Source: Polychytrium aggregatum
Lineage: Eukaryota > Chytridiomycota > Chytridiomycetes > Polychytriales
NCBI RefSeq assembly: GCF_025602895.1
Contig: NW_026516271.1
Coordinates: 186,001-250,000, forward strand
Direction of reading: 5' to 3'
DNA: 64,000 bases
The notes beneath the pieces are model-generated. The model was given only the letters and a program-made list of their open reading frames with translations. It ran no database searches and was not told where the DNA came from. Positions 2,349 through 64,000 of the stretch are shown here, piece after piece; position 1 is the stretch's first letter; every line of letters begins with the position of its first letter. Made by a program: the position numbers and the translations under genes.

Positions 2349-4666
2349 CTACTGCTCCATTTTCTGCAGGACCTGCTTGAACACGGCCGTAGCCTCGTCG
2401 ATATCAGACTCCTGGATGATCAGCGGCGGGACCAGGCGGACGGTGTTGCATCCGGCCGAGATGACAAGCACGCCGTGCTCGCGGGCAAGATCAACAAAAG
2501 TCTGGGTGCTGACGCCCTCGTTGAGCTGGATGCCCACCATGAGACCCTTGCCGCGCACCTCCGCGACGAGCTTGCTGCCGGCGGCAGCCTCCTTGCACTT
2601 TTCCAAGAGGTAGACGCCCTTCTTGTGGACGCCCTGCAGGAACTGCGGGGTCTGGATGATGCTGCACACCTCCTTGGCGACGGCTGAAGCGAATGGCGAG
2701 CCGCCAAAGGTAGTGCCGTGGTCACCAGGCTTGATCACCGAGGCGACGGCCTCGCTCACAATGGTAGCACCGACGGGGAGGCCGTTGGCAATAGGCTTGG
2801 CAATCGTGACGATGTCGGGAGTAATGTCGTACTGCTGGTGGGCATAGAAGCTTCCAAGTCGACCCAAGCCACACTGTCAAGTTTACAACCGCAGGAACAG
2901 GCCAAGCGATGCGGAGACGACAGGGGACGGGGCAAGCGTTTGTCAGCATAGACCATGTGTCGACTCCGAGTCAGCGCCCTTTGCGAACCTCCTCCATGTG
3001 AGAGATGCGTAGTGCGGCACAGAGGACCGACCTGGATCTCGTCAAAGACAAGCACGGCGCCGACTTCGTCGCAGCGCTCGCGGAGGGCCTTCAGGAAGGC
3101 GTGGGTAGACGGGTGAATGCCGCCCTCACCCTGGACAGGCTCGACAAAGACACCACAGGTGTTCTCGTTGATAAGATCCTTGAGCTGGGCAATGTTGTTG
3201 AACTCGCCGTGAACAAAGTGGGGAATCAGCGGCGCAAAGGGAGCTTGGTACTTGGGATTGGGGGTAGCCGACAGAGCACCGAGCGAGCGGCCGTGGAAGG
3301 CATTGCTGAAGGAGACGATCGTGTCTTTGTTTGGGTTGTTGCCCTTGGCCTTACCATACTTGCGGGCGAACTTGATGGCGGCTGGAAGGAAATACGGGTT
3401 AGCCAGTTCCGAGAGCGGCCGCGGCAGTGGCGCCATCGCAATAAGCGTCCCAAACCGTGCCCAAAGACGGATGGGCAACGCAGCCCAAGCGCCGGGCAGG
3501 GCGGCGGATGTTCGGACAGGCTATGCAGCAGCGCACCTTCGTTGGCCTCGGTGCCGGAATTGCACAGGAACACCTTGGCGCCCTCAGACCACTTGCCGCG
3601 GCCGTTGAGCTGCGCGACGAGAAGCCTGGCAAGGTCTCCAGCGTTTTCGTTGTGGTAGAGGTTGCTGAGATGGATGAGCTTCTGGGCCTGCTCGCTGATG
3701 ACCTTGGTAACCTGCGGGTGGTTGTGGCCAAGGGCGTTGACGGCGATGCCGGCGTTCATGTCGAGGTAGGAGCGACCGGCAAGATCAAAGAGTCGGACAC
3801 CTTGGCCGTGGGTGAAGATGAGCGAGGGGCGTCCGTACAGCGAGAGCAGGACCTTGGAGTCCTCCTGGAGACGCTGGGCAGTGGAAGCGTGGGTATCTTT
3901 GTCCAAGTGGGTTGCCTGGAGCCGAGCCGAGCCGAACCGAACCGATCAAGAGGATGACCGGTTTGAGCCGCGGAGAGTTGGATCGGAAGATAATCATCCA
4001 TATTAGCCCCGGCTAGCAACCGACAACGAGAACGCTGCTCCAGAGTCAGACAGAGTGCGTTCTATTGATGACGGTCCGACCGCCAGTTCTCAGATCCATG
4101 TCCGAGGAGGACAACTGGCCCAACCGACACCTGCATAGGCTTGTCAAAACAGATGCGGATCGACATGTCGGACACATGTGGCAATATCGAGATCCAGCCA
4201 CTCAAAGGCAAACTCGGCCGGTGCGATGGGCATCCCGGAACTTGCATCCGTAACTGCTCTCGAGCGACATATCGAAGCAGGGTGCCAGATATAGTTGTTG
4301 AGCGAGGTGCTCACCTGTCGGACACACGACATGGACGAGAAGCCTCTGTGAACCTGGAACTTGGCGCGGAGCTGGCGAGACAGGAGAAAGCAGGAGAAAG
4401 CAGATCAGGTCAGCCACCGACAAGGAGCAGCCGAGGGAGCCGCCAGAGTCCGGGTCGAGAGTTCATCGAGACCACCGTTTGCAGCGATGCTCCTCAGTGC
4501 CTGCAGCCTGCGTGTTCCAGCGACACACAGAGACTGAATCGGCGACAGACGCAAAGCTAGGTGCATATGCGAGGCTGTGCTGTGGACGCAGCCTTGATCG
4601 CCGGCCGGTCGAGCAAAAGCGGGGACTCACAGGAGCCGCGCGGGTCAGACGAGCGATGGTCAACAT
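2349..4666 (-). CDS. ARG8: Acetylornithine aminotransferase, mitochondrial
   Basis: PLP-dependent class III aminotransferase converting N-acetylglutamate semialdehyde to N-acetylornithine in arginine biosynthesis. Four exons: 4631-4666, 3537-3915, 3032-3381 and 2349-2873, all GT-AG and in phase, giving 429 aa, close to the yeast enzyme. The 12-residue first exon MLTIARLTRAAP is basic and lacks acids, as expected for a mitochondrial presequence. Seen motifs: GRSYLDMNAGIAVNALGH near the N-terminus, FLCNSGTEANEAAIKFARK, VFDEIQCGLGRLG, and the PLP lysine in IVTIAKPIANGLPVGA. Ornithine aminotransferase is the nearest alternative, but the presequence and the motif set favour ARG8. It is transcribed away from RPL18 across a 450-bp divergent intergenic region. 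Confidence 0.93.
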
Positions 4667-25264: not shown

Positions 25265-25697
25265 CGTGACACATTCACTCAATGTGGGGGTGTGGTGCAC
25301 TCACTCGACCCTCTGGACAACTCCATGGTGTATCGATATCAAGATGCTCGGGTGACTCGAGTCGCTCGGCCTCCGGGCACTGTGAGCACACCTGGGATGT
25401 GTTGAACTCGTTCACCGAGCACACATGGATCTTGGAGACGGATCGGTCTGGTGGGTGTCTCTGGTGGTGGATGAACTGCTCGAAATACCGAGCGAACCAG
25501 AGTCTCCGTGGACTGGAAGCATATCCCTTCCCTTTCTTCCACGAGGCATTCCCAAAGGCAATCACCACCTCGGTCTCCTTGGACATACTTGCTTGGCCAT
25601 GAATGCAATGAGTGGGTGGGTGTATTCAGGTTCCGGAAAAAACACTGTCCTGGTTAAAAACGGGGGTGTCCCATTTTCGTTATGGGAACCGCGGTTA
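25265..25697 (-). mobile_element. Deletion derivative of the Fanzor/mariner element, copy A
   Basis: Encodes, on the minus strand, a fragment of the Fanzor C-terminal half: ETEVVIAFGNASW, KGYASSPRRLWFARYFEQF and VNEFNTSQVCSQC, then diverges. The high-coordinate end keeps a degenerate element terminus containing AAAATGGGACAC, followed by about 85 bp of leader that matches copy C (50614-51259) almost base for base, including CCAGGACAGTG and CCTGAATACACCCACCC. The RuvC-I and RuvC-III regions are missing. The low-coordinate boundary is not clear. It abuts the LINE fragment, so it probably inserted into that element. Non-functional. Confidence 0.8.
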
Positions 25698-26700
25698 AGT
25701 TGCGTCATATCATTCATCTGTTCGTCAACCGCACCAGCTCTCATGATCGACTTCCTGTCATTTATGGTGACCGTGCACGGGGTGCGCTCTTCAATCTTGT
25801 CCCAGAGCTTCTCCCTCCAGACAGTGTCGTAGGCCGCCTTGATGTCGAGGAACACCAGGGAGTACTCCTCGCCCGCCAGCTGGCGGTCCTTGATGAGCGT
25901 GTCCAGGCCAAAGATCTGGTCGAGGGTGCCTCGCTCGGCCCGGAATCCTCCTTGGGCAATGTCCATCAGTCCGAGCTTTCGGTTGAGCAACGGCAGCAGT
26001 GCTCGCTCAACAACCTTTCGGCAGACCTGGGTCAGTCCAATCGGCCTGTACATTGCGGGGTCGAGGGGCGATCCCTTGTTCTTGTAGACGGGATGGATCA
26101 GCACTGTGCTCCACTCAGTTGGGACCACGGACGCCTTGATGGCTGCTCCCATGAGGAGGTAGAGCCATATCGAGACTCTATGTGCGTTGGGCTGGAGCAG
26201 TTCGATCTTGATCCTGTCCGACCCTGGGGCCTTCCTTCGTGGTGTTGTAATGATCGCCTCCTTGATTGCCCGTGGGCTGATTATGGGGAGCTCGTAGCTG
26301 GGGGGGAGTCGTCTCTCCTGGCTAGGGGTTTCAGGTTGTTTGGTTACATCAAACACGCTGTCATCGTCTTCGAGGTCAGCAGATACTTGAGGTCGCTCAG
26401 CGACAGGTTGAAGTCTCCCATCACGATAACTTGGGCACTGGACATCCGCGCGTACTTTTCAATTGACTGCACCGCTTGCGCAAACTCTTCGGTCTCCACC
26501 GGGCGGGGGATGTAATAGGTTCCGATGTATGTTCTGGTGTCGCACGCCACCACCAATTGTGGCAGACACCACATCGGACGACGAAGCCAGCATCGGCGAA
26601 GGTGTTTCGGATGACGACAGGGAGTCGCTCTGGTTCCCACACCGAGAGGTGCTGGCGCGACTAGAGCGACTCCGGCTGACTGACGACGACTCAACAGACC
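25698..26700 (-). mobile_element. LINE (non-LTR retrotransposon) fragment: endonuclease and reverse transcriptase
   Basis: The minus strand carries an APE-type endonuclease piece (SAGVALVAP, then THIYIG-like region and VIVMGDFN) followed, in another frame, by a reverse transcriptase: RRKAPGSDRIKIELLQ, YRPIGLTQVCRKVVERALLP, GGFRAERGTLDQIF and the motif-A segment SLVFLDIKAAYDTVW. The FADD/YADD catalytic box and everything downstream are missing, and the endonuclease is frameshifted. This is a dead, truncated, non-LTR element. The clade cannot be fixed from this piece. Confidence 0.8.
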
Positions 26701-27424: not shown

Positions 27425-29865
27425 CTAGCTGAGTTTTCTCCCTAATCGTCTCCTCGATCCATGAATCTGTAGACGAATGTTAAATACCTCGTGGTAGAGT
27501 CTCTCGGCTTCCTTGTATTCTCCTTGTGCCGAGAGGACGTTTCCAGTATCTTCAAGAGTCTCGGCAATATCGAGATGGATACGTGTCCCATGGGTCTCGA
27601 GTTGTTGCTTCAGAGCTCGATCGTAATATTCCTTGGCAGCAACATAGTGTCCTCTATCATTCGACACCAAACCCATGTGATGCAGAGTGAGCGCAGCCTG
27701 TGGATGGCTTGTATGTCCTTCAATCGAAGTGAGAATTCGAAGTGCGTGGTTAAGTGAATCCTCGGCCGGATCCAAGTGGCCCAGCCGGCGATGATTGTCG
27801 CCGAGGTGGTTCAGGATCCCAACGATTTCAATATGTTCTTCGGTGCCGAAGTACTGCACAGCCCGCTTGAAATGGGTCTCAAATCGATCACTTGCAGCCC
27901 CAAACCCTCCTCTCTCCTCGGCAAGCTCTCCCTGTCGAGTGGCGAGTCTGACATGTTCGAGCTTGGTGTATCCTTCGGCAACTGTAACATTGATGAACCT
28001 GTCGAGATGTTCTGCAAATTGTTGTGCCTTGAGATCCATCGAGTCAGTCAGCTTGATCAGCACTTTACCAGTTGCATCTTCGATTCCGTCGACATTCAGT
28101 TCATCGTGTGCCTGGACATACTCTCGAGCCACAAGCTGAGTGAGCAAGTGCGTCGAGTACCGTCCCTCGTTTCCACTTCGGAGAAGACCACTTTGGACCA
28201 CCATCTTGATCAGATCGGTCACTGTGGACAGATGGACTGGTCAGTTCCATGCACTGACATCAATTGCACTCCGATCCACTCGCAACTCACCTTCGGTCTT
28301 GAGCTCCATCTTCTGTGCAATCTCCTTGATCAACTCAAACTGGATGTTGGCCGGCGCCACCAGACTGAGGGCACCGAACAGCCTGGCTGCCTCGATACCT
28401 TCATTCCCTCGCTTCATCAGCGAGTCCAGCGACAGATCCACAATCACCTTGAGCGACGACCGCGTGTCGTCATCGCCATCCTGCAGCTCCAATGCTCCTG
28501 CAAACGTGGCCTCGAGCTCCGACAGGGGAGTGTCGTAGTTCTCGGCAAACGTCATGAACGTCTGGATGACGAGTGGATATCCGCTGATCTTGGCCACGAT
28601 GCTGTCCAGGGACTTCTTGGCCTCGTCCGACACAAGTCTCTGGACAATCATTGGCGACGACGACATGATGTAGTCGAGTGTGGTGGAGTCATTCCAGTTG
28701 CCGAGACGGAGTGGGTCATATTTGTAACCTGGGATCTTGGCCTTGAGAGCACTGGCGAATGCACCAGGAGGCAGCGAGGCCAGCCGGGTCGTCACCACCA
28801 CATCGCCGCTGAACCCGACCGACTTGGAGTGCTCAAATACAGAGTCGACCACGTTGATGTCATCGACATTGTCGAGCACCAGGAGATAGCCGTGAGTATT
28901 GGCGAGGAACTTGGCGGCGTGCTTCTTGACTTTCTCTGGTTCAACCGCGCCATCGAACACTTCGCACAACCCATCGATGGCAGTGGACTCGGTCGAGCAG
29001 TTGAGCCAGAAGACCTGGCGGTACTGCGGCTTGATGCCAATGGTCTTAGCTTTGATGACATGGAGGTCGTCCTTGTTGCTCGCATTCATAATGCCCATCA
29101 TGAAGAACAGGATTTGGACGGCCAGGACGGACTTGCCCATGCCACCCATGCCGGAGATGACAGCGCGGCCAGTCAGGGTGAGCAGTTTGAGCAGGGTGTC
29201 GAGGCGGATGGGATCGAATCGGAACTTGGAGTCACAGAAGAGCGAGTCGAGGACCTGCCGAGTGCCATCATTCACTTGCAACGGGTGGAGCAGATTGAGT
29301 AGACGATAGACTCGCCTGTAAATCTGGTCAGGACGAATGCCAAACATCTGGATGTCGGACAATCCCTTCAGGACGGCTCGAAGGGTGTCGAACTTGGAGT
29401 CGTCGGGGATGGTGGCTCGGTATGGCTGAAAATCGATCCACACGTCCTTATCAGCATCCTTCACGAGGCTGGACACACAAAGGGGCATCACCGAGATATC
29501 GACTCCTGAGTCAACGAGGTCGAGGGCGGTCTTGATCTCAAGCAGAACGTTGTCCTCCTGGCCAGACCCGGCTTTCTGTACCATGGACTCGAGCGATGCC
29601 TGGCTGATCACAGCGACAAAGACTTTGCTTCGGGGAAGAGCGCCGAGGAAACCGTCCTTCCACTTCTTTGCGTCTCGCAGACAGTCGATATCGTGGAAGA
29701 CGGCGAGGGGTTGGCCATAACGGCGCTTGGCAACAGCCGCCAGCACCTCCTTGAGGGACTGGACGGTGAAGCATCGGTGGCGACTCGATACGAGAGGAAC
29801 AGGTCGTGGTCAGGGCGACCATGCACATGGCAGTGATAAAGCTGATTGCGAGTGGTCTTGAGCAT
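27425..29865 (-). CDS. TIR-NB-ARC-TPR protein (NLR-like STAND ATPase), one-base frameshift in TIR domain
   Basis: Multidomain receptor-type protein. Exon 1 is 28291-29865 and exon 2 27425-28221, with a consensus 69-bp intron. The start ATG (29863-29865) leads into HDLFLSYRVATD, the first TIR box; the reading frame then loses one base near 29771-29772 and continues as VQSLKEVLAAVAKR, VFHDIDCLRDAKKWKDGF and KVFVAVIS. The NB-ARC follows: Walker A SGMGGMGKSVLAVQ, Walker B LLVLDNVDD, and VVVTTRLASLP. A winged-helix-like stretch leads to C-terminal TPRs (LNHLGDNHRRLGHLDPAEDS, ALTLHHMGLVSNDRGHY, DTGNVLSAQGEYKEAERLYH), total about 790 aa. TIR domains in such proteins are often NADases or adaptors; here the function is unknown. 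The frameshift may be a true lesion or an assembly error. Confidence 0.82.
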
Positions 29866-34865: not shown

Positions 34866-35370
34866 TCAATTCGATTTATTGGTATGGAACTGTACAGTGT
34901 GTTACTGGGTGTCTCTCACGTCAATCCTTGCCTGTTTGTTCCGGAAGCACAGTCTCGAATACACCCGGTCGACTGGCATTGATGTTGCGATGTGAGAATG
35001 TGACTGTATGCATCCGACCTTCTGGACAGCTCCATACTAACTCGAGTCGCTTGGCTTCCCGGCACTGTGAGCACACCTGGAGATTGAGTCGTTGAATCGC
35101 CGTCGCCGGGTCAGGGTGAAGTGCAGCTGTTTGTCCAGCATGTCTCCATCGAACACATGGCGAATGTATTGCAAGCATGAAGCCACCCCGGGAATCTTGG
35201 GACTTGGTGTGGTGCTCATCCAGCGCATTTTTGGGCTGGCAGCGATGCCCGCAATGGCGTCCTTGATTCAAATCACAGAACAGTCATGGTCAGCGCGCGA
35301 TGTTTTGGGTGATAACATTCACCAACGACCAAAAATCCGGGGGTGTCCCGTTTTTATTGGATTGGCTGTA
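34866..35370 (-). mobile_element. Deletion derivative of the Fanzor/mariner element, copy B
   Basis: The high-coordinate terminus (35344-35370) reads inward TACAGCCAATCCAATAAAAA then CGGGACA. The next 80 bp match the transposase-side end of the full element, through the place of the transposase start (CATCGCGCGCTGACCATGAC). The rest encodes Fanzor scraps on the minus strand: RWMSTTPSPKIPG, VCSQCREAKRLEL and RPGVFETVLPE. The transposase body and most of Fanzor are deleted. The low-coordinate terminus is a degraded match near 34866-34895, so that boundary is approximate. Confidence 0.75.
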
Positions 35371-41705: not shown

Positions 41706-42333
41706 GCGCACGACCCGGCGCAGCTTGCACTCGTTCCTCGGTCCGCCATCCCCCTCCCCTCATTTCTCCTCATTCTCTGAGCATTCCTTCCCAGCGAATC
41801 GGCACTTGACGACGACGCTTGCTTTTCTTTCAATTCTTACACCGCTCGCATTTGATGCTTTGTCCCTCTTCGCGTGTATCGAGATGATCCCAAGGAGAAA
41901 GAGGGTGGGAAAAGGAGTGCTTTTCTCCACTGCCTGAAGCGACCAAAGGAGGCAGAGAGCAGGGATGACATTCATCCACCGCTGCTTGCTGTTTTCGAGT
42001 GCGGAAACGCCACCACACCTGCCGCCGCGCTTCGAGTCTCCGCCGCCGCCCCCCTTTTATCCCTTTTGTTTTCTCCCTCTTCACTTTACTTTTCTTGAGT
42101 TTGTCTGCAGATCGTTTGCCCTGCCATTCGCTCGCACCTCGCCTTCATATATCAACACAGCTCCTCTGAGAACTGCAGCTGGAAAAGACATTGCCGTCGC
42201 AAACCCAGAGTCTCACAAACACAAATGGGCCCGGCATAGCAAGAGGAGGTTTTGGCTCTGGTTCTGGTTCACGTTCAGCTGCTGCTGCTGCCGCCGCCGC
42301 CACCGCGGATCAGTCGGTCTGCTCGGTCTTTGG
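41706..42333. other. Intergenic region between LPD1 and the Fanzor/mariner element
   Basis: 0.6 kb of LPD1 3' flank, CT-rich in places (TCTCC/TTTTC). No gene or RNA recognised. Confidence 0.5.
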
Positions 42334-42361
42334 TACACTTTATTCAGAAAAAAACGGGACA
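42334..42361 (+). repeat. Terminal inverted repeat, Fanzor side
   Basis: TACACTTTATTCAGAAAAAA then ACGGGACA. The right terminus of copy C (read inward TACAGTCTATCCAGAAGAAA then CGGGACA) matches well. Confidence 0.8.
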
Positions 42362-42433
42362 ATATAGCCGTTTCCATGAACATGTAGTATGTGCTGTGCT
42401 TGCGTCAAGCAAAGCCACAATAAATAAAACAGA

Positions 42434-44807
42434 TCACTTTGGCAGCCTCCGAGTGAAGACCGCCGGTCGCTCTCCGATCTCCACAATCGACCTGCACACT
42501 GTGATCATGTTGCGCGCCGCATTGACGTCGCGATTCCACACTGTCCGGCAGCTGGGATTCTTGCAGCTCCTGACAAAGTGGGAATTCGCAACACTGGGCG
42601 CATCGAGTCCTTCCAACCGAACTGGCTCCAGGCACTTGGAGCACACTTGCGAGGTGTTGAACTCGTTCGTCGAGACTACCTTGACGCTTCCGTGAGGGCG
42701 ATGTGGGTGGCGTCGGTGGTGCTCGAACTGCTCAAAGTACCGAGCGAACCGCTGCCTCCGAGGGCTGGATGCATAGCCCTTGCCCTGTCGCCATGACGCA
42801 TTGCCAAAGGCGATCACCACATCCTTCTCCCTCGGGGCGTGCTTCAGGACGGCCTTGCACATCCTGTCGACGGCCACTTGGCGCCTCTTGTGGCCCGTGA
42901 ATCGATGGTGACGGGCCTTCTTGCCAAGGTGGAAGTCGAGCTGCACTCGCAGCTCCGGTCGCAGGACATGGGTGAGATGGACCTTGAAAGCCTCCGAGGA
43001 CGACACCTTGGGCGAGGGAGTGGTCGACATCCAGGTCTCGATGCTGAGTCGATACTTCATGGTATTGTGCCACTTGGTGTCGGACTTGTGGCCACACATG
43101 TGCTGGTAGTGGGCATTGGAGAATGAGACCACCTCGTCTTGGTGGCCCGGTGCTTGGATGACCGCCGTGAAGATGGAGCCGACTCCAGGATCGATGCCAA
43201 TCCAAGTGGTGCGGTTGGGGTCTGGGTCACCGATGTGGGCCTGGATGCGCTGTTCGGCAGTCGGAGGAGGCTCGATGGTCTCGGTGTGATCGGTTCGAGG
43301 CACAAACTTGACGAGGCCGATGGTGCATCCAATGCCAATCGGTGCTGATCTCGTAGTTGAACAGCTTGTGATTGATATCCCGTTCTTGGAAGAGGGAACT
43401 ACGCAGCTTGAAGCAACTGCGCCAGAGACGGTCCTGGTTGTTGATGCCGTCATCACCTTCTTCCTTGAGCTTGTCCCTGGTGAGTCCAAGGCGCTTCTTT
43501 GGACCCAGGAGTTGCCAAAGAGTGACCGTGTCAATCTTGACATACTTGGCCTTGGCTGTGCATAGAGGAACTATCGTGCACACGGCCGGAGGAGTGTCCA
43601 GAGCGAGCTGCTTGAGTGCCCAGTTGAGTTTGGATGCCAGCTTGTTGATCTTGGACTTGGTGGTGCCGAGCTCAGACTTGGCCTTGGTGAACCTCTTGTC
43701 GTCGGAGGGAATGCCTTGGGTAGTGAGCTTGTCCAGCTTGGCCTGGCGCTGCAGCTCGGTGACTCGGAGGGCGGGCATGTCGCAGTCGATCCACTTGTGG
43801 ACATTGTCGACCATCTTGTCCCGGGCGAGGATTCCCACATGGTGTGAGAGGCGATGGAGGGCCCGGAAGCGGTCCTGGTCGCTGCTGTACCGAAACTCGT
43901 CCAGGACGTGGCCAAACTCGGGATAGAGGAACTCGAGATCGGCCTTGGGTGGAGTCTGCCCTGGTTTCTCGAAGAGCTCGAGACAGGCCTCGATGGCTTC
44001 GTGCTTGTGCTTGTTGGCTGGGAAGACGGCAGCGCAGAAGCGGCGAAGGAGTCGCCAGTAGGCCAGGTTGAGGTGGGTGGTGCAGTTGGTAGCATAGGCA
44101 TTGACAGCCAGTGTGAGAAGCTGACTGTGAGCACCATCAGGCAGACGAGGGGCCGGAGGCAGGTCTGCGTGCCGAGTGGTCTGGTAGTCGCGAAAGGAAG
44201 CGACCAGATGCTCGTTGTATTTCTCATTGTCCCTGGTTGGGGAGAGCGCACCGGCCTGGACGATCCTGAAGCATTGGCGAACGAAAGCAGGGGTGGACTT
44301 GGAAATGACGGGGATGGGAAGATCCTGCTCGATGCACCGGAGGATGTGCAGGTTGAGCAGCCTGGATGCCTCGAACTGGATCTGGGTCATGGCCTCGACG
44401 GTGGCCTGGATCTTGTCGCGGAGAGCGGGATTGAGACAACAGCCATCCATCGTCTGCTTGAAGCAGCTGAACTGAGGGGCGGATGACCTTCCATCCACGA
44501 GTGGGACGACAGAACTCTTGAGGGGCCGGTATTTGGGACATTTGCTGGTGTTGCAGCGTTCGTGATCGGTGCCATCGCACTTGGGACATCGCTTGCTGGT
44601 ACTCGAGGAAGTAGATGGACCAGGCTCGGTGGGATCGACATCCATTGGATCTGCAGAAGCAGTGGTGGTGAGCGACGGAGCAACAGACGACCAAGCATGC
44701 GTGGGATCAGAATACGAACCAGAGACAGGCTCCGACTGTGACTTGGCTTTCTTGGGCCTGGGTGGCCGAGGCTGGCCATCACCGGCACCCTTACGCTTCG
44801 GAGGCAT
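42434..44807 (-). CDS. Fanzor (eukaryotic TnpB-like RNA-guided nuclease), frame broken by one extra base
   Basis: Reads from ATG 44807 to about 43338 in one frame and from 43336 to stop 42434-42436 in another, about 790 aa in total. The N-terminus is basic (MPPKRKGAGDGQ, RPKKAKS; likely nuclear signal), followed by a small zinc-knuckle-like CPKCDGTDHERCNTSKCP. The frame changes inside the conserved TnpB/Fanzor ISTDG segment, where an extra T on the minus strand (43337) turns TDG into TDW. RuvC-I Asp is in WIGIDPGVGS, RuvC-II region DVVIAFGNASW, zinc ribbon SQVCSKC...SCKNPSC, and RuvC-III Asp in WNRDVNAARNM. The usual RuvC-II Glu is absent, but a conserved Glu about 46 residues on (TNEFNTSQ) could replace it. 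Fanzors use an element-encoded guide RNA; I could not delimit one here. Confidence 0.88.
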
Positions 44808-45058
44808 GGGGGCAGAGGATGCTGGATGCCTGCCAGTGGTACTGGTCAGAACAGAGACTTCTCTTTATCGTACAATAGCGCGATGATCAGATCAAGGCGA
44901 GATGAGGGAAGAAAGCAGCAGGACGAAGGTGTGGCATTTATACCCGAGAGCAGGAACCCGTCGTTGCGGGCTGGTTGGGAAGCGACCCTGTTCAAAAATC
45001 GCCGAGAGGTTCAAGCCAGGGATTTGGGCGTGAAAATGGCGGCTTGATTGGAGGGAAC
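44808..45058. other. Spacer between Fanzor and transposase genes
   Basis: 251 bp inside the element. Probably holds the Fanzor promoter and the transposase 3' UTR. Nothing specific recognised. Confidence 0.4.
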
Positions 45059-45991
45059 TCAACCCCAGAAGCGCATCGCTCGCTCAATCAGCCGTGGGAA
45101 GACATCTGGAAGCACCCTCCGAACGGCAGACTCAAACAGGGTCACCATCCCGACTCTGAACCCCTCGGACGCATTCAGCGCTGCTGCCTTCCTGTACTGG
45201 TGCTTCACAATCCCAAAGAAGTTCTCGATGGGATTGAAGTCGGGCGAGGCAGGTGGGGTGAAGATCACTGACCATCCTCGGCGATCGATGCAGTCCAGGA
45301 CAGCCATTGTCTTGTGCATGCTGACATTGTCCATCACAACCACAGAGTCATCTGGGAGGGTCGCTCGCTCAAAGAACTCGACCATCGAGTGTGTCTTGAA
45401 TGATGTGGGGATGTACATGCGATGCAGCACACCAGAGTGGTTGATGGCAAATGCAGCCGAGACAGACTTGTGTTTCATGTGATTGCGCTGGCGAAGAGGA
45501 GCACCCTTCAGTGAGTACCCGTAAAGAGGAAAAATGGATCTCCTGAACCCTGTCTCGTCGACAAAAACGAATCGTCGTGGGTCGATGGAGCGGACCTGGT
45601 CCCTGAACTGTGCCACTCGCTCATCCAGTCGCTTGGACTTGTAGAGGTGTGTTGCCCTCTTGTGTGAGAGACCTGCTCGCTGGATGGCAGTGTGGCAGAG
45701 TGAGAGTGATACTTTCCTCTGGAGGATGGACTCGAGCTTGCATCGCAACACAGGACCAGTCTGGAACGGGTCCTGTTCAATCAGGGTGCGAATGACTGGA
45801 CATGCCTGCTCGAAGAAAGTGGATCTGCGAGCTGGGACCCGGGATGGGTCATCCAGCTTGCATCCTCGGTGCCATCGATGGATGGTGCTCTTGGATACAC
45901 TGAATATGGAGGCAACCTTACGCAGGCTATGGATGAGATCGTAGCATCGCAATGCGGCGGTGCGAAAGTCGGATGTGTGGCGAATGGTCAT
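45059..45991 (-). CDS. Tc1/mariner-type DD34E transposase
   Basis: Intact intronless ORF of 310 aa. N-terminal helix-turn-helix (SLRKVASIFSVSKSTIHRWH) is followed by a second DNA-binding segment. The DDE triad is seen: FVFVDETGF (D1), VVMDNVSMHK (D2) and FNPIENFF (E), with 34 residues between the second Asp and the Glu (DD34E, the IS630/Tc1 type). No stop or frameshift, so the enzyme could be active. Its start ATG lies about 57 bp inside the element's terminus, and copy B keeps this same terminus-plus-start region. It catalyses cut-and-paste transposition at TA sites in known relatives. Confidence 0.92.
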   Translation of the reverse strand: MTIRHTSDFRTAALRCYDLIHSLRKVASIFSVSKSTIHRWHRGCKLDDPSRVPARRSTFFEQACPVIRTLIEQDPFQTGPVLRCKLESILQRKVSLSLCHTAIQRAGLSHKRATHLYKSKRLDERVAQFRDQVRSIDPRRFVFVDETGFRRSIFPLYGYSLKGAPLRQRNHMKHKSVSAAFAINHSGVLHRMYIPTSFKTHSMVEFFERATLPDDSVVVMDNVSMHKTMAVLDCIDRRGWSVIFTPPASPDFNPIENFFGIVKHQYRKAAALNASEGFRVGMVTLFESAVRRVLPDVFPRLIERAMRFWG

Positions 45992-46048
45992 GGCCAGCGC
46001 GCGATAACATTGGGTAACAAAATATTCGATGAATGGTCAAAACCCGGG

Positions 46049-46076
46049 TGTCCCGTTTTTAATTTGATCGCCCGTA
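46049..46076 (-). repeat. Terminal inverted repeat, transposase side
   Basis: Read inward on the minus strand it is TACGGGCGATCAAATTAAAA then ACGGGACA. Copy B has the same terminus with few differences. Confidence 0.8.
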
Positions 46077-46319
46077 AATACCACGGGCACGCCCCCCGGA
46101 AGGCATTCTCTATTACACAATTATTACAGAGATCGCAACGGGATTCGGGGGGGGGAGAGTGGAAGTAGAAGAGAAAGGTAGGGGCTGAATGGAAACTAGA
46201 GCGAGATAGGGGGGGAGACAGCCAAGAGAGGCCTAGCTTCAGAGCACAAAAGCTCAGTGCCTTGGCAGCAAACCGGCTTGGCTCTTTGTTCATACCGTCC
46301 ACAAGCAAACTTCTCGCTC
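46077..46319. other. Short intergenic region between the element and PMT gene
   Basis: 243 bp downstream of the PMT stop codon. G-rich (GGGGGGGGA near 46148). No feature recognised. Confidence 0.4.
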
Positions 46320-49300
46320 TTAGGCGTGCTGCAGATCCCAGCTGTCGAACCACTTGCGAGTGCGGAGGGTCGCCTGGTCAGGGAAGCCTGTGCCGTACGT
46401 GAGCGGAGCAAAGAAGAAGAACGAGCCAATGCAGATCGCGAGCGTGACCACAGTCGTGATGGTGTAAATGACACCGGCCTGCTTCTTCATCCACTTGGAC
46501 ATGGGCGTTCGGTAGTCCGTTCTTCGGTTGGCGGCCTCCTCGCTGACGACGCGGCCGATAAAGTCAAACATCACGGCCGTGAGCATGACCGAGAAGATGA
46601 ATGAGGGGAGGTAGTGGTGCAGGAACAGGCAGCGACCCATCAGGAAGAAGGGCAGGTAGTGGAGGAGCCAAGCCAGGAGCAGATAGCCCGCGGTGTTGCC
46701 CCACCAACGGCGGACGTGGGCGCCGTAGTCGTCGATGCCCCGGCGGAGGAGGATCTGGTCAATGATCCAGAGCATCATGTACAGGAAGGTGCAGACGATC
46801 GCGAGCCACCAGATCAGCGGGTTGCCGAGCAGGTAAATCTGCTTGAGACCCTCCTTGGTTTCCCAGAAGGAGATGCCGCGGAGGACAAACGGCCAGGTGA
46901 TCGGGGTGGACGAGTACGGGTGCGGCGTGGTCAGGCCGGCATTGTGTTGGATCATCAGCTGCTGCAGCTCAAGGAACTTTTGCAGGAACGACAGCTTGGG
47001 CGGGGCCTCATGAACAGTCTCCTCTTCGGGTTCGAAGCCTGGACGGCAGCGTATCGGGCACGCGGGGACAGGAAATCCATAGACCATAAATCAGTGTCCG
47101 CCATCGAGTCTGATCCGTGCCAGCCGCGGTGCCCCGTCATCGCATGGACACGATTCACACCAGAGATGCCGAGCAGGTCCATCACGGCCGTCAAGCAGCA
47201 CCGACATCCAACATACCGTCGACAAAGGCAGAGTGGCTGACCGAGTCGATGTACCAGTTGTTGGCAACTTCTTTGAGGTTCTTGTTTCCGTTGATCTCCT
47301 GTTGGCTGAAGCCCCAGTCGGGAAGAGTGCCCTTGTGGGAGTGCACAGCGACATTGTGGGTGTGGCTGACGATGCGGATGGTGTTGCGCTTGGCACGGAT
47401 CTTGTAGCTGCCAGCATCGGCGTCGATGACCTCGATTCTCCAGACCGTCTCGTCGTAGCGCTCGAGCGGGTCGCTGATGGTGGTCATCTCCATATGCGTC
47501 GACATCAAGCTGGAGGCAACGTCGTGGGTCAGGAGATACGAGTTGGTGCCGGCATGCTTGAGGCGGACGAGGTCGCTGTTCTTGACGTAGCGGTATCCCT
47601 TCCTGAGCTCCTCGCCATTCCAGTGGTACGTATGCGCACCCTCAAGCAGAGCAGGGTCAATAGGCTCGATGATCCAGTCGTCGTTGACATCCTCGTGCGA
47701 ATAGCCTGTGACTTGCTGGCCCTGGCTGCTGACGCGCTCATCCTCGTAGCGGAGCGGGTAGTTCTCGGCGTGGGAGTGGAGGAAAACATTGGTGTTGCGG
47801 TGGCGGAAGCGGACGGTGGAGTTGAACACGAGAGGAACTGAATGACGAGAGCGGCAAGAGGAGCATGCAGTGTGAGTATCTCGGATGAGGACGCAGCCTT
47901 GAAACCAAAGGCCGATGGCTACAAGACAAATATCCCTGTGACATCAAAGAGTCCGCTCTTCAGCCCAGCTTGTACAAACGCAAACTCACTGGTGCGGGCT
48001 TGGTTCATCGAGTTGCCAATAAGTTCGGCCTGGAATTTGTGGCTCATGAAGGCATCGCCGGGACCGCTGTGGGTCAGGATGGCAAAGTGGATGTAGAAGA
48101 ACGAGAGGTAGAGGGTGATGGGCAGAATGATGAGGCAGAGGGCGCGAGCGGCAAAGTGCTGGCTGAATCGGCTCTGTGGCACGGTTGGGAGAGTCGAGAG
48201 CGGACAATGGACTGGATCAGCATATAGGCCTCGCAATAGTGCGTCGAGTCAGGGTCTGGATAGGGCGATATGGGCGATGGACTGCAACAGAGGCTCTGAG
48301 GCTGAAGTAAAGGCCAAACCGATGGTGCACACTTACCAGGGAGACCCCACGTCGGTAGTCAAGTAGGCGCCACAGATCAAAGAGGACAGCAATTCCGACG
48401 GTGCCGATGGAAAAGAGACCGACCATCTTGACGCTGCACAGCGCAGAGGAGATGGGTCAGCACGAGTAATGTTGACGCAGCTGGATGCATAGAACGACAT
48501 CGATCGGAGAGAACACATGCAGGCGCGGCTTTGCGTCCCTAAGGTCGTGAACATACCCGAGAGTCAGAGCCAGAGAAACACCCGTGAGGGTGAGCCAGAT
48601 CCACCATCGAATGGAGAACTCCCTGTAGTTTGACAAAGGAAGCGGAGGGATATCGATGAGTGGGCATCCATGGCGAGCAATCGACGCTCATCTGTATCGT
48701 CGCGCTGCAGATGGCTCGGGATCCTTCCGACGGCTCGGCCCAATGAGTTGCCGAAGACACACACACACTCGCATCCAAAATACGTACTCGTAGCGGTACT
48801 TGTAGAACTTGACCCAAGTGTAAATCGAGAGCACGCCAAAGAGCATGAGCATGCTGTCCAGCAGGATGAGACGAGACTGGGTCATCAGAGAGTTGTCTGG
48901 AGCAGAGAGCTGGAAGGTCAGTTCCTTGTAATAACGGTACCGCTGTTGGGGATCTTGGCAGTTGAATCGAGGCAGCCCCCACATTCAAGCGCTTCTATGT
49001 CTGACACCGGTAGACGGTATCATCCTGTCCCACCCCCTCATCTTTTGCCCGCCGGGACAGCACAATCATCTCACCAAACACGAGCAGGAGGGCGCCAAAG
49101 AGACAGCCCAGAACGGTCAGACCCATCTCCTTGAGAGTCAGATAGGCCACGGGGACGATCAGGGAGCCGCAGATAGCAGGGAATAAGCGGAGGCCAATGT
49201 GGGGCACGTTGTTGGTTGCGTAGTCGTCGCCGATGTTGTCAAAGAGGAAGTGGCCGTCGTAGCCGATCCAGTAGCCCGTAGCCGCCAGGAGCATCTTGCC

Positions 49301-49971: not shown

Positions 49972-50613
49972 GGATGAACGGCTATATCTGGGTCTGGAGC
50001 GGTAGGGTCAGGTTAGTGCACGGGAGAGCGTATATGCAAGGCAGAGCGGTGCCCGGAGCGACTTTCGAGAAAACGTTGAGGAAAAGGGCACAGCCAGATC
50101 GTCGACCTCCGGGGTTGGAAGTTCACAACGGAAACGGAGGCGCAAGTCAATGGGAACTGGTGGGGGGGGGAGGAGAGGGGAAGACCCCCTTTCCTTCTTA
50201 ACCCCCACAAGACCATCGACCAGATTGCCGACGGCTACCCAAGCGATCGAGAAGCAAAGACGCCTCCCGCAACCTGGAGCAAGAGCGAGGATCAGTGGGA
50301 ACTCCGAGGAGGACAGCTCGGTCAGCGTACCCTTCAGTCGAGCAGGAGATGTCGGATGTCGAACGGACGCAGCAGATCGCTGGGGGGGGGTGAAGGAGAG
50401 GCTGGCGATGTGCGGCAGGTCGAAACGGGGTGACGCCGATCGAGGCAGCCAGCAGACAAAGAAATGCGCCGTGCTTGGCTTCGATTGGCTGGGAACCTGG
50501 CAGGCGAGAAACGCGTTGCACCAGCAAGATCGAAGCCGCCGTCTCTCGGCCAGGACCCAGCCCGTCGATACTGCAGACGACACTCAAATACGTGCGATAC
50601 ATTGCGGGCCAAT
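49972..50613. promoter_or_regulatory. Upstream region of PMT4
   Basis: 0.64 kb between the PMT4 start and transposon copy C. Contains a G-run (50161-50170) and purine-rich stretches. No specific site recognised. Confidence 0.4.
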
Positions 50614-51259
50614 TAGAGCGTTTCCAAAATGAAATGGGACACTCTCCGTTTCTAACCAGGACAGTGTGTTTACTGTGACCTGAATACACCCACCCACTCA
50701 TCGCATTCGTGGCCAAGCAAGTATGTCCAAGGGAGACCGAGGTGGTGATTGCTTTTGGGAATGCATCCTGGAAACAGGGGAAGGGATATGCTTCCAGTCC
50801 CAGGAGGCTCAGGTTTGCCAAATACTTTGAGCAGTTCATACACCACCAGAGACGCCCACCAGACCGATCCGTCTCCAAGATCCATGTGTGCTCGGTGAAC
50901 GAGTTCAACACATCCCAGGTGTGCTCACATTGTCGGGAAGCCAAGCGACTCGAGAAGGTTGAGTATCTTGATGTCGAGAAACCACACTTTGTCCGGAGCT
51001 GTGCAAGCTGCCATACGCTGTGGGATCGAGACATCAATGCAGCCAGGAACATGATCTCGGTATGCCAGTCGATCATCGCCACAGGAGATCGGCCATGTGT
51101 ATTCAAGGCTGTGCTCCCGAAACCAACCAAAACAAAGCGATTGCCAACGAAGACAGGAGTGCAATGCCATGGCCTGCCCGCTGGGCCTACAGTCAGTCAG
51201 CGGGGTTCAGACATCTGAAGCCAGGAAGGAACTGTCCCGTTTCTTCTGGATAGACTGTA
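50614..51259 (+). mobile_element. Deletion derivative of the Fanzor/mariner element, copy C
   Basis: 646-bp element with both termini recognisable (left TAGAGCGTTTCCAAAATGAA then ATGGGACA; right, read inward, TACAGTCTATCCAGAAGAAA then CGGGACA). It holds an open Fanzor C-terminal fragment on the plus strand: ETEVVIAFGNASWKQGKGYA, VNEFNTSQVCSHC, SCASCHTLWDRDINAARNM, ending VLPKPTKTKR. RuvC-I, the N-terminal half and the transposase are missing. The leader from the left end to the Fanzor fragment is shared with copy A, so both descend from one deleted ancestor. Non-autonomous at best. Confidence 0.85.
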
Positions 51260-51766
51260 GAGCTTCTTGTGGCGCTGTTGATCGCAAGCGGATATAGAGG
51301 CAGGGGAGTGTATGTATCGAGAGGCTCAGACAAACGAGAGAGCAACGAGGCGAAGATGGGAAGGAAATGACCAAAGCGAACAAACTTGCTGCAACCAGGG
51401 ACAGCCAATGAGAGACCCGCCAGTGCGGGCGGCGGAAGGAAGGAGACTAGCAATACAGTAGAGGCAGACAAAAAGCAATTTAAAAGGGAAAAAAGGGCCT
51501 GCTGCATCGACAAAACCGATGAAATATGTTGGCAAAACGAACAGCGCCGACATATGGGGGCTCAAGAAGCATGGCAACGTCAGATGAGTGCCATCTTGAT
51601 GAATGCCATCCTGACGAGTGCCATCCTGACGAGTGCCACCCAGACGACAAAACAGCACGGGAAGCACTTCTCCCGACACACACACACATCCTGTCTATGG
51701 ATCCAGCTCGTGTTCCAGCCACTTTGTTCGTCCAGCTTGCTCTAGCACCTCTCGAACAGATCCCGC
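51260..51766. other. Intergenic, 3' flank of the Sat4-like kinase gene
   Basis: 0.5 kb with a 15-nt tandem repeat (51583-51641) and no supported gene. Confidence 0.5.
51583..51641 (+). repeat. 15-nt tandem repeat around GACGAGTGCCATCCT, about four copies
   Basis: Imperfect tandem units of GAYGARTGCCATCYT, 126 bp downstream of the kinase stop codon. Confidence 0.85.
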
Positions 51767-61788: not shown

Positions 61789-64000
61789 TTACATATCATC
61801 AGGGTCCGACACAATTTCCACCTCATCAGGATACTCGGGGCGGTTCTCAGCAATGGTAAAGAGCGGAGTCTTGCCCCTGGTCAGCTATCCACGAACAAGA
61901 ACCAGTGAGTGAGTGAGTGAGTGAGTGAGTGAGTGAGTGAGTGAGTGAGTGGTCGCCGGCTGCGCGGGCCCTCACCTTCTTCGCATGTTTGCAGAATTCA
62001 TCAAAATCGAGTGAGTTTCGACAGTAAAATCCAATGACAAGCGACGGATCTAGGTTGCTGATATGCATTGTTCGGACCGTGGGACAGTGGTAGCTTGACA
62101 AATCCTGCAGGCGTTATCATCAGTTTCACACATAATATGCTTTAGTAGGTGCTGGACGACTCTTTTGACCAGGCACGGCAAGTCGTTCGTCAACCATTGT
62201 CGTCTGCAAGATCTTCATAGGCCCTTCCCAGGCTCCAGCACTATAGCACAGCAGTACGCAGTTTTCTCGGGGGGGGGGAATGCCTCGATACAAGCAGCCG
62301 AGCGACCTATTTCGAATGCAGCTCACCTCCACCGTATACGAGTTGTAGTCCTTCATCGACACAGCTTGAGTAGGAGGCGACCGCGGTTAGAGGACCCGGC
62401 TGGCCAAAGTATTCATGTGCATTACAGCTGGCCATACCTGCTCGCGAATAGTGCGGATCCAAGTATATAAACTTGCTTCCTAGCGATTCAATTGAGAACA
62501 GGAGATCAGTTGCTCGTCGCCGGCCGCGCCGCAGTTCAAAAGCTATCGAAAGTCTACGCGGGTCGATAATCCGTACCCTGGTATCCGATGAAGAACACCG
62601 AGGAGTTTGGGCGGCCGCTGATGTCATCCAAAGGCTTCGATTAGTGATTCCGGCAGCGCTGAAGCGATTGTGATGCGTCCCCGGGACTGTCATGGCTCTG
62701 GCACACAAACCCGGCAATCCCAACGCAATGGGGGATATCGAAGCAGTTCTGCGGATGGGATTGCTGTTAGTCAGAGACGCAACCAATCGATTGTATCCCA
62801 TTGATACCCTCTGCAAACGCAGCCACCGGGCGAACCAGACCGCCTACCCTGAGGGCGTTGTGGTACACCGGGTTGAGATTCTCGACGCCGAGTCGCAGGG
62901 GAATCAGAAGCAGAAGTGGTTTCCACTCCGGATCGTCGTCCTCCGACTTGGCTGTGGCCTGAACGTCGCTCTTGTAGACTGCGCCGTCGAGGCAGTAGTG
63001 GATTTCGAGCCTGCTGTCTCTGTGGGTATGGAGCAGGGTTCTGTGGGAATCAGAGAGAGTACTGTGAGCATGTCGATTCCTTCAGAAGCCTGGGAAAGAT
63101 GGGCTCATGCACGCCTGGAGCACCGATCCAATGTGATCAGCAAGACACCGCAGCGCATCACCTGAGAACTTGGGAGATCGTGCCTGGGCCAAACCATGCC
63201 CCGATTTCCTTATCATACTGCTGGCCCAGCAGCGCCACCCGGTGAATGGAGTATGGGCTCGAGTTGGAATCAAGGAACCAGCTGACGATCTGGGTAGTTG
63301 GCGAGGACAATCACATCGTGAGCCAGCCATGATCGAGAAGGGGGCCATAATCGGGACGAGAGCCACCAGCGTCCAAACAGGCACTGCAAAGGCACCTGCC
63401 TTGGAGTAGAGCGTCATGGTCGGTTTGTCCGAGTTATTGGCCAGTCTCCAGTCTTGATCAGCAAAGCGACATTTTGGTCGGCGAGCGGCAGCGAGTGGAT
63501 GATCCGAATTCAGCCCGTGCGAACCAGATTGCTTGTCCCAGCCGGGATTATGCCCAAGTGGATGGGGATGCAGGCATTCGGTGTGGAGACTGCTTTGCCG
63601 ATCCCTCGCAGCACCATTGGCTGCTAATGGCCGTATACGTCGCCTGGGGAAACTCACCTCTTCCAAGATAGTGCAAAACGAATGCACTGGCGAGGAGCAT
63701 CTGGCCCGAGCGCAGCATGCAACCCCACCCGACATCCGAAGTGTAGGTGCTGGGCTTGATGGGAGGAAACGAGTAGCGGTAGGTGATCCACAGACGCGAG
63801 CGAAAGTCGTCCAGAAACGCCGGGTCCTCCAGCGATGGATAGAGGATGCCCAAAAAATGAACAAAACTGTCGGGGGAGCCCGAAGACTCGGTGTCGGAGT
63901 CGGACCGGTTGGGATAGAACGAGACGGATCTTATCGACTCGACCGCCTGGTGGACAGCGTTGTGGATGTTGGCGGAGACCTTTTGCCAGAGCTCATCCAG
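61789..64000 (-). CDS. ATG4: Cysteine protease Atg4, N-terminus outside window
   Basis: Autophagy protease that trims Atg8 and later releases it from phosphatidylethanolamine. Nine exons visible: 63658-64000 (continuing past the window), 63400-63452, 63162-63289, 62848-63040, 62577-62634, 62438-62479, 62327-62364, 61976-62104 and 61789-61884. The catalytic Cys is in TSDVGWGCMLRSGQ; the Asp-His pair is in IYLDPHYSR. Other family segments: SNSSPYSIHRVALLGQQY, EIGAWFGPGTISQVLR, PLRLGVENLNPVYHNALR and LDPSLVIGFYCRN. The tail LFTIAENRPEY contains an LIR/AIM-like core and ends in acidic residues. Intron 2 uses a GC donor (AAG|GCAGGT). The acceptor of the exon at 62577-62634 is tentative. Confidence 0.92.
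61905..61951 (+). repeat. (GAGT)n microsatellite in last ATG4 intron
   Basis: About twelve GTGA/GAGT units inside the final intron of ATG4 (61885-61975). Confidence 0.9.

Follow-up and report, generated by a model that had tools for sequence, protein, structure and literature searches.

A Tc1/mariner-type element with a DD34E transposase and a Fanzor1 gene in the chytrid Polychytrium aggregatum: mosaic copies and a one-sided T at the insertion sites

The window analysed here, that is the whole stretch of 64,000 nucleotides at positions 186,001–250,000 of contig NW_026516271.1 of Polychytrium aggregatum (assembly GCF_025602895.1), contained a Tc1/mariner-type transposon with two genes. The element was 3,743 bp in length including both terminal TA dinucleotides, and it occupied window positions 42334–46076 on the minus strand. 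In the 5′–3′ direction of the element, the transposase gene (45991 to 45059) was followed by the Fanzor gene (44807 to 42434). The transposase-side end of 28 bp (46076 to 46049, minus strand) reads TACGGGCGATCAAATTAAAAACGGGACA, and the Fanzor-side end of 28 bp (42334–42361) reads TACACTTTATTCAGAAAAAAACGGGACA; both begin with TA, have AAAAACGGGACA in common and form imperfect terminal inverted repeats (TIRs). TIRs of this kind were observed, with small variants, at all 39 loci tabulated, and the 5′ ends of loci L046 and L050 were damaged. The boundaries confirmed the coordinates given by a first-pass annotation, which had placed two genes between inverted ends of about 28 bp starting at TA. The identity of this transposon, a Tc1/mariner element with a DD34E transposase and a Fanzor1, is firm.

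The transposase of the window copy was an intact frame of 310 amino acids and matched Pfam DDE_3 (E = 6.7e-23). The catalytic triad was read in copy L017 as D145/D221/E256. The last two residues are separated by 34 residues, and the assignment to DD34E in the first-pass annotation was therefore right. An N-terminal match to HTH_23 (E = 0.0024) was under its gathering score. The full 310-aa frame was found in 12 of the 29 copies extracted whole. In viral contigs, ten pattern matches for the transposase were obtained and none was confirmed; no pattern match was found there for the Fanzor.

The Fanzor1 gene of the window copy matched Cas12f1-like_TNB (PF07282; 6e-10) and was frameshifted. Its reading frame was broken into two, of 545 and 378 codons, which overlap, and the frameshift lay somewhere within 43227–43570. 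A single intronless frame of 790 aa existed in 18 of 29 extracted copies, and one more copy had a frame of 786 aa. The full-length transposase and the 790-aa Fanzor occurred together in six of 29 copies (seven when the 786-aa frame is counted). A protein search of the same genome gave at least 57 Fanzor places, 49 without and eight with a stop, and this is a biased top list (the best 57 of 1,280 candidates). The Fanzor of L017 carried the RuvC-I motif DPG at D539 and a repositioned RuvC-II glutamate (E715-FNTSQV-CSKC), six residues ahead of the CxxC, as defined in PMC10711439. It also fitted the pattern D-X(125,275)-[TS][TS]XX-C4-X(5,50)-RD (C4 zinc finger plus RD motif) taken from PMC3627910, and matched PF07282 at 1.7e-9. 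The stricter DPG...CxxC...CxxC pattern, used for TnpBs in PMC10711439, gave no match in L017. These features bore out the Fanzor1 nuclease that had been annotated in the element, with the frameshift of the window copy added. A structure model of the protein had a mean pLDDT (predicted local distance difference test) score of 33.7, too poor for fold comparison.

Across the whole genome, the best 39 of 1,287 candidate copies were scored, a list that favours near-complete copies. At least 30 of them were full-length (the window's own and 29 others at 95–96% identity), and all of these contained both genes inside the same ends. Because of these copies, we conclude that the transposase and the Fanzor travel together and are not a chance pair of neighbours, as the first-pass annotation had held; the other full copies that it had proposed to look for across the assembly thus amount to at least 29. 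At least nine internally deleted copies were found among the 39, and in nine of nine the loss lay inside the transposase. Patterns that tolerated up to three mismatches picked out 396 5′ ends and 276 3′ ends genome-wide, and the reversed-pattern controls gave 0. For the first 100 listed places of either end, a partner was identified for 51 of the 100 5′ ends, and 49 were unpaired, partly since the pairing drew on these first 100 places. The paired elements comprised 21 of 3,718–3,790 bp, 20 of 3,177–3,666 bp, three of 1,114 bp and seven of 283–385 bp.

The 1,114-bp form had lost parts of both genes. For eight of the 20 intermediate elements (3.2–3.7 kb), the Fanzor list contained a full-length match, with the loss lying upstream of the Fanzor; seven of these eight had no stop. 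Another intermediate copy (C42, L033) had lost transposase sequence and had a premature stop in its Fanzor; the remaining 11 of the 20 were unchecked and could have lost part of the Fanzor. It was the transposase that had been lost in the copies checked. Among the 51 end-paired elements listed, none had the size expected for loss of the whole Fanzor with the transposase intact, and no copy in which the two genes were separately bounded was seen among them.

The first-pass annotation had also argued for joint travel from a "copy B" (window ~50610–51260), which was read as a second copy of the element with its transposase-side end joined to Fanzor scraps. This argument did not hold, and copy B was rejected as a second copy. 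It belongs to a separate family with at least 38 scored places (88–95% identity, matches of ~530–660 bp), and its Fanzor scrap showed 63% protein identity to the C-terminus of the element's Fanzor. By eye, the 5′ TAGAGC of copy B (window 50610–51260) recurs after its 3′ end, a possible duplication of 6 bp. A second Fanzor scrap, with 66% protein identity to the element's Fanzor, was located at window 25353–25574; this part of the window (25353–25689 and 25783–26266, minus strand) placed the scrap beside a sequence that by eye resembles reverse transcriptase. A possible further end relic lies at window 35283–35370, where the element's first 90 bp matched weakly (72%, E 0.005).

The copies differed from each other by 3.9% on average (2.7–5.6% in 431 comparisons of non-paired copies). 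Linkage between sites was calculated from 28 copies (L037 omitted) and 235 biallelic sites at which the minor variant occurred in three or more copies. The mean squared correlation (r2) was 0.407 at 1–10 bp, 0.084 at 10–30 bp and 0.035 at 30–60 bp, and it then stayed at 0.035–0.039 out to 3.8 kb; the effect of distance was unmatched in 1,000 permutations. The Hudson–Kaplan bound (Rm) was 134 exchanges from 218 sites. A block of seven differences (2574–2582) and a block of five differences (2701–2710) were each carried by nine copies, in varying combinations, and all four combinations existed in two of three block pairs. The low linkage could not be attributed to homoplasy, because these blocks of seven and five differences reassort. 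The copies are fine-scale mosaics which have exchanged sequence, and not a clonal star. Among them, 269 biallelic variants were present in a single copy. No description of mosaic Fanzor copies was found in the literature searched, which covered titles and the openings of abstracts, with most subscription journals outside its scope.

A control repeat of 728 bp was analysed in the same way in 15 of 20 fetched copies (five copies below 700 bp were omitted). Its r2 was 0.767 at 10–30 bp, 0.640 at 30–60 bp and ~0.27 at 60–250 bp. Its Rm was 4 from 19 sites, compared with 0.46 per site on average in element samples of matched size, and this comparison is limited by the 17 sites in its linkage count, its mean identity of 98.6% and its lower diversity. 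In a separate observation, L023 and L052/L053 had a common 5′ flank (99.7% over 300 bp) and different 3′ flanks, a pattern of exchange between copies or of one-sided duplication.

Among the 49 insertion sites read, 44 were independent after L026, L028, L037, L052 and L066 had been dropped as duplicates with the same site or flank. The base before the 5′ TA was T at 40 of the 44 sites, A at three and G at one, against a T background at this place of 13.6% (337/2,474 in the window; p ~2e-30). Two of the four sites without T were L046 and L050, which have damaged 5′ ends; when they are left out, T was found at 40 of 42. The mirror base, an A after the 3′ TA, occurred at six of 44, the background level. 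Of the 39 loci, 36 had TA at each end, the exceptions being L014, L046 and L050, and no empty site was found for comparison. Eleven copies had a 5′ end other than TACAG. One of them, L037, shares its site with L009, and L046 and L050 are damaged; eight were left when these three were dropped. In five of these eight, the three bases after the 5′ TA were the first three of the 3′ flank (p 5e-8, post hoc), a TANNN duplication. The TANNN duplications indicate that the TA is target sequence, which puts the T in the flank, and they lend indirect support to a TA duplication; the proposal that the T is the element's own base was therefore rejected.

The T-TA at the transposase-side junction of the window copy (46075–46077, minus strand) would thus consist of the TA of the putative target site duplication and the conserved flanking T. 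The 3′ end of the element was GTGTA in 27 of 29 copies and GTGTT and GGGTA in one each, and the base before the terminal dinucleotide was G, not T, in 29 of 29. Since the element's own 3′ end reads G-TA, a filled site has no T-TA there. By analogy with SpuFz1 of Spizellomyces punctatus, whose guide lies in the 14–15 nt beyond the right end (PMC10432273), the target-adjacent motif (TAM) of this Fanzor is predicted to be TTA, with the 3′ flank as its guide. The predicted guide copy and target would be the first 15 nt of that flank (window 42319–42333, minus strand). By eye, the 3′ flanks of L015, L048 and L067 directly abut TIR-like sequences of related families with the TA in common, an arrangement that looks as though insertion were preferred at the termini of related elements.

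Four pairs of loci had common flanks: L009/L037, L013/L026, L017/L028 and L010/L094. They are presumed to be alleles. Their flanks were 98.9–100% identical, except for one relic stretch of 608 bp at 95.6% (L017/L028); the comparison covered 200 bases on each side in L009/L037 and 23 bases 5′ and ~90 bases 3′ in L010/L094, and the 5′ match in L013/L026 was 484 of 2,000 bases. The elements within the four pairs differed by 2.6–3.5%, and 74–86% of these differences were variants present in other copies. This indicated that the same-site differences were probably mostly copied in, and new mutation was rejected as their main source. In L009/L037 the ends agreed and heavy differences lay between ~750 and 2,750. 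Size classes also differed at the same site (3,605 vs 311 bp at L036, 3,743 vs 280 bp at L048, 3743 vs 3640 bp in another pair and, by coordinates, 283 vs ~312 bp at L062 and 1,114 bp vs ~3.5 kb at L070). The term "recently mobile" in the first-pass annotation was not supported, as the copies differ by ~4% and the presumed alleles are both occupied.

Empty sites were searched for with the joined flanks of 43 distinct sites (28 + 23, eight in both), and the scoring covered the best 40 out of 496 candidates in one search and the best 40 out of 495 in the other. Matches were obtained for 39 of the 43 sites, and among the matches listed none spanned both flanks. As the matches were read, a second locus existed for 27 of the 43 sites. 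Twenty-five of these 27 had an occupancy sign of their own (an end of the element, a Fanzor match at the expected spacing, flanks lying apart, or the sequence itself); at L015 and L035, occupancy was judged solely from a match pattern resembling the filled locus. At the L027 site, the two flanks lay ~32 kb apart on C14 (G000:C14:63211-95200) with an element 5′ end at 63210, which would be a very large insert or nested insertions.

The ratio of nonsynonymous to synonymous polymorphism (pN/pS) was 0.43 for single-copy variants and 0.25–0.33 for shared variants in the transposase, and 0.44 and 0.26–0.36, respectively, in the Fanzor. Both proteins are under purifying selection and constrained to a similar degree. 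Diversity was lowest in the 3′ TIR (0.007), followed by the 3′ noncoding part (0.0175), and was 0.040 in the Fanzor body. The 3′ 168 bp of the element (element 3576–3743; window 42334–42501, minus strand), of low diversity and kept at least to this extent in the 12 short copies read, is a candidate scaffold of the omega-RNA. A search of the 3′ end against Rfam gave no match. In the neighbourhood of the element, parts of a protein O-mannosyltransferase gene were found at window 46320–47943 on the minus strand (PMT_4TMC 1.9e-65, MIR 2.4e-16), and its nearer frame ended ~240 bp from the element.

The architecture itself is already known, because the pairing of Fanzor1 and a mariner transposase has been published: the mariner elements PGv-1 and PUl-1 (Bao and Jurka, 2013; PMC3627910) carry a mariner-type transposase and Fanzor1, TIRs and TA duplications as this element does. 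The first-pass annotation had thus stated correctly that Fanzor1 genes occur inside mariner elements. PGv-1 was described as single-copy and with a third gene (a GIY-YIG nuclease), whereas the present family has hundreds of ends, miniatures and two selected genes. Spu-1 of Spizellomyces punctatus likewise has Fanzor1, TIRs, ghost copies and putative TA duplications (PMC3627910). A conserved CA stands upstream of its left end, in the ghost copies too, and the measured TAM of SpuFz1 was CATA (Saito et al., 2023; PMC10432273); the bases of the left flank match the TAM there, as TTA is predicted to do here. That study found no transposase inside the Spu-1 repeats, whereas here the transposase lies within the same ends. 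The Fanzor of this element (790 aa) is also larger than SpuFz1 (633 aa; PMC3627910), and the two showed weak sequence similarity (phmmer E 0.63). Less expected were the mosaicism of the copies, the T on one side of the insertion sites and the differing element versions at loci with common flanks; the first two, in a family that bears a transposase, are worth following.

Based on these observations, we favour, with middling confidence, Fanzor-guided retention or homing in which repair involves template switching; the anatomy is read directly from the copies, and the mechanism is what we infer from it. The transposase would excise the element and insert it at TA. Transcription of the 3′ end would yield an omega-RNA with the adjoining host sequence as its guide, and the Fanzor would cut the element-free version of the site, where a T-TA as TAM is followed by a guide match; the filled site would be spared with its G-TA. 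The break would then be repaired by copying the element from the homologue or sister, and this repair would often switch template to other copies and sometimes stop early. The outcome would be sites occupied on both chromosomes, favoured insertions at TTA, shuffled copies, and the rise of internal deletions and miniature elements. The best argument for a role of the Fanzor is the combination of the one-sided T, the putative self-protection by G-TA and the Spu-1 precedent. A comparable proposal exists for the TnpB of IS200/IS605 elements, in which the guide keeps a record of where the element inserted and copies lacking the element are cut, giving retention or gene drive (PMC11870625). That case comprises experiments with prokaryotic TnpB on plasmids, whereas here a eukaryotic transposase of the double-strand cut-and-paste kind is involved and the proposal is drawn from comparison of copies. 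A bolder version, possible but on the doubtful side, is an RNA-guided homing drive of a eukaryotic cut-and-paste transposon with the Fanzor as its engine, in which empty TTA sites are refilled, insertions become homozygous, and repeated copying with switches of template makes some hundreds of dispersed copies one freely recombining gene pool that breeds miniature, guide-carrying copies acting in trans.

Several results weigh against Fanzor-guided retention. The strongest is the presence of this T in short copies that lack a Fanzor frame (10 of 10 read; nine independent sites, within the 44), which would require action of the Fanzor in trans, unless the T is a preference of the transposase; the mechanism itself is a prediction. 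The occupied second loci fit homing, and they may also be insertions that predate the split of the haplotypes. A heterozygosity control for other transposons was not obtained, because the 422-bp difference considered for it, between window 27452–27465 and G000:C364:1004845-1005268 (L059), contains tandem repeat units that by eye resemble tetratricopeptide repeat (TPR) coding repeats; this C385 vs C364 difference, with a 14-bp repeat, was rejected as a heterozygous insertion and is a change in tandem-repeat length. In the empty-site search, L013, L020, L023 and L038 gave no match, their own loci included, and the search therefore says nothing on these four; each search scored the best ~40 of ~495 candidates. 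The same-site partner was still the nearest copy in five of eight comparisons, and rewriting is incomplete. The control repeat also recombines somewhat. As to the RNA, 12.6% of 100-bp windows were as low in diversity as the last 100 bp, the predicted fold of the 3′ end barely beat shuffled sequences (z −1.62), and the 5′ TIR was among the more diverse parts (0.051). The low diversity is thus not unique, and together with the weak fold and the lack of an Rfam match this leaves the omega-RNA as a candidate only.

Gap repair after excision is known for Tc1 and P elements, and when interrupted it ordinarily yields internal deletions and miniature copies. The transposase might therefore be sufficient: after excision the host would repair the gap from the homologue, the sister or other copies, template switching and premature stops would produce the mosaics and miniatures, the one-sided T would be a target preference of the transposase, and the Fanzor would be carried along for another reason. 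The transposase deletions and the miniature copies are what this explanation predicts, and the T in the short copies without a Fanzor frame fits it directly. However, one would reason that two similar ends give symmetric sites, and T was found at 40 of 44 on one side and A at six of 44 on the other. The pN/pS of the Fanzor was also as low as that of the transposase, and the Fanzor was full length in the eight transposase-deleted end-paired copies present in the Fanzor list, with 11 of the 20 of that class unchecked. We regard gap repair by the transposase alone as unlikely but deserving serious attention.

Ectopic recombination by the host, which would shuffle every high-copy repeat with no role for either gene, is quite improbable. 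In its favour, a relic of a related family adjoining the element differed between L017 and L028 (95.6% identity, compared with 98.9–99.3% for the rest of the flanks), and the control repeat recombines too (Rm 4 from 19 sites, r2 ~0.27 at 60–250 bp). The copies of Pokey, a DNA transposon in Daphnia, recombine as well (PMC3575242); those copies were studied in the 28S rRNA genes, a recombination hotspot, whereas the copies here are dispersed over many contigs. The control nevertheless keeps long blocks (r2 0.64 vs 0.035 at 30–60 bp) and shows fewer exchanges per site (4/19 vs 0.46), with only 17 linkage sites and a lower diversity behind these values. Still less probable is an assembly artefact, in which reads of different copies were mixed into false mosaics and false same-site differences. 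A large family with ~96% identity is hard for some assemblers, but mixed reads should, by reasoning, hold phase for at least 100 bases, and phase was lost within 10–30 bases. Moreover, the 269 single-copy variants survive, the pairs with both flanks in common differ by kilobases, and the control family retains its blocks.

Whether Fanzor helps transposons needs, according to Saito et al. (PMC10432273), more sophisticated genetic manipulation, and the benefit of a Fanzor to its transposon is an open question. This element family offers a ready data set for it: the two genes share one pair of ends, these ends number in the hundreds, deleted and miniature forms occur naturally, and there are loci occupied in pairs. 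Fanzor-guided retention predicts TTA as the TAM, the 3′ flank as the guide and G-TA as the self-protection, and at the population level it predicts mosaics and few empty alleles. Thus, copies that seemingly rewrite one another may show what an RNA-guided cutter does for its element.

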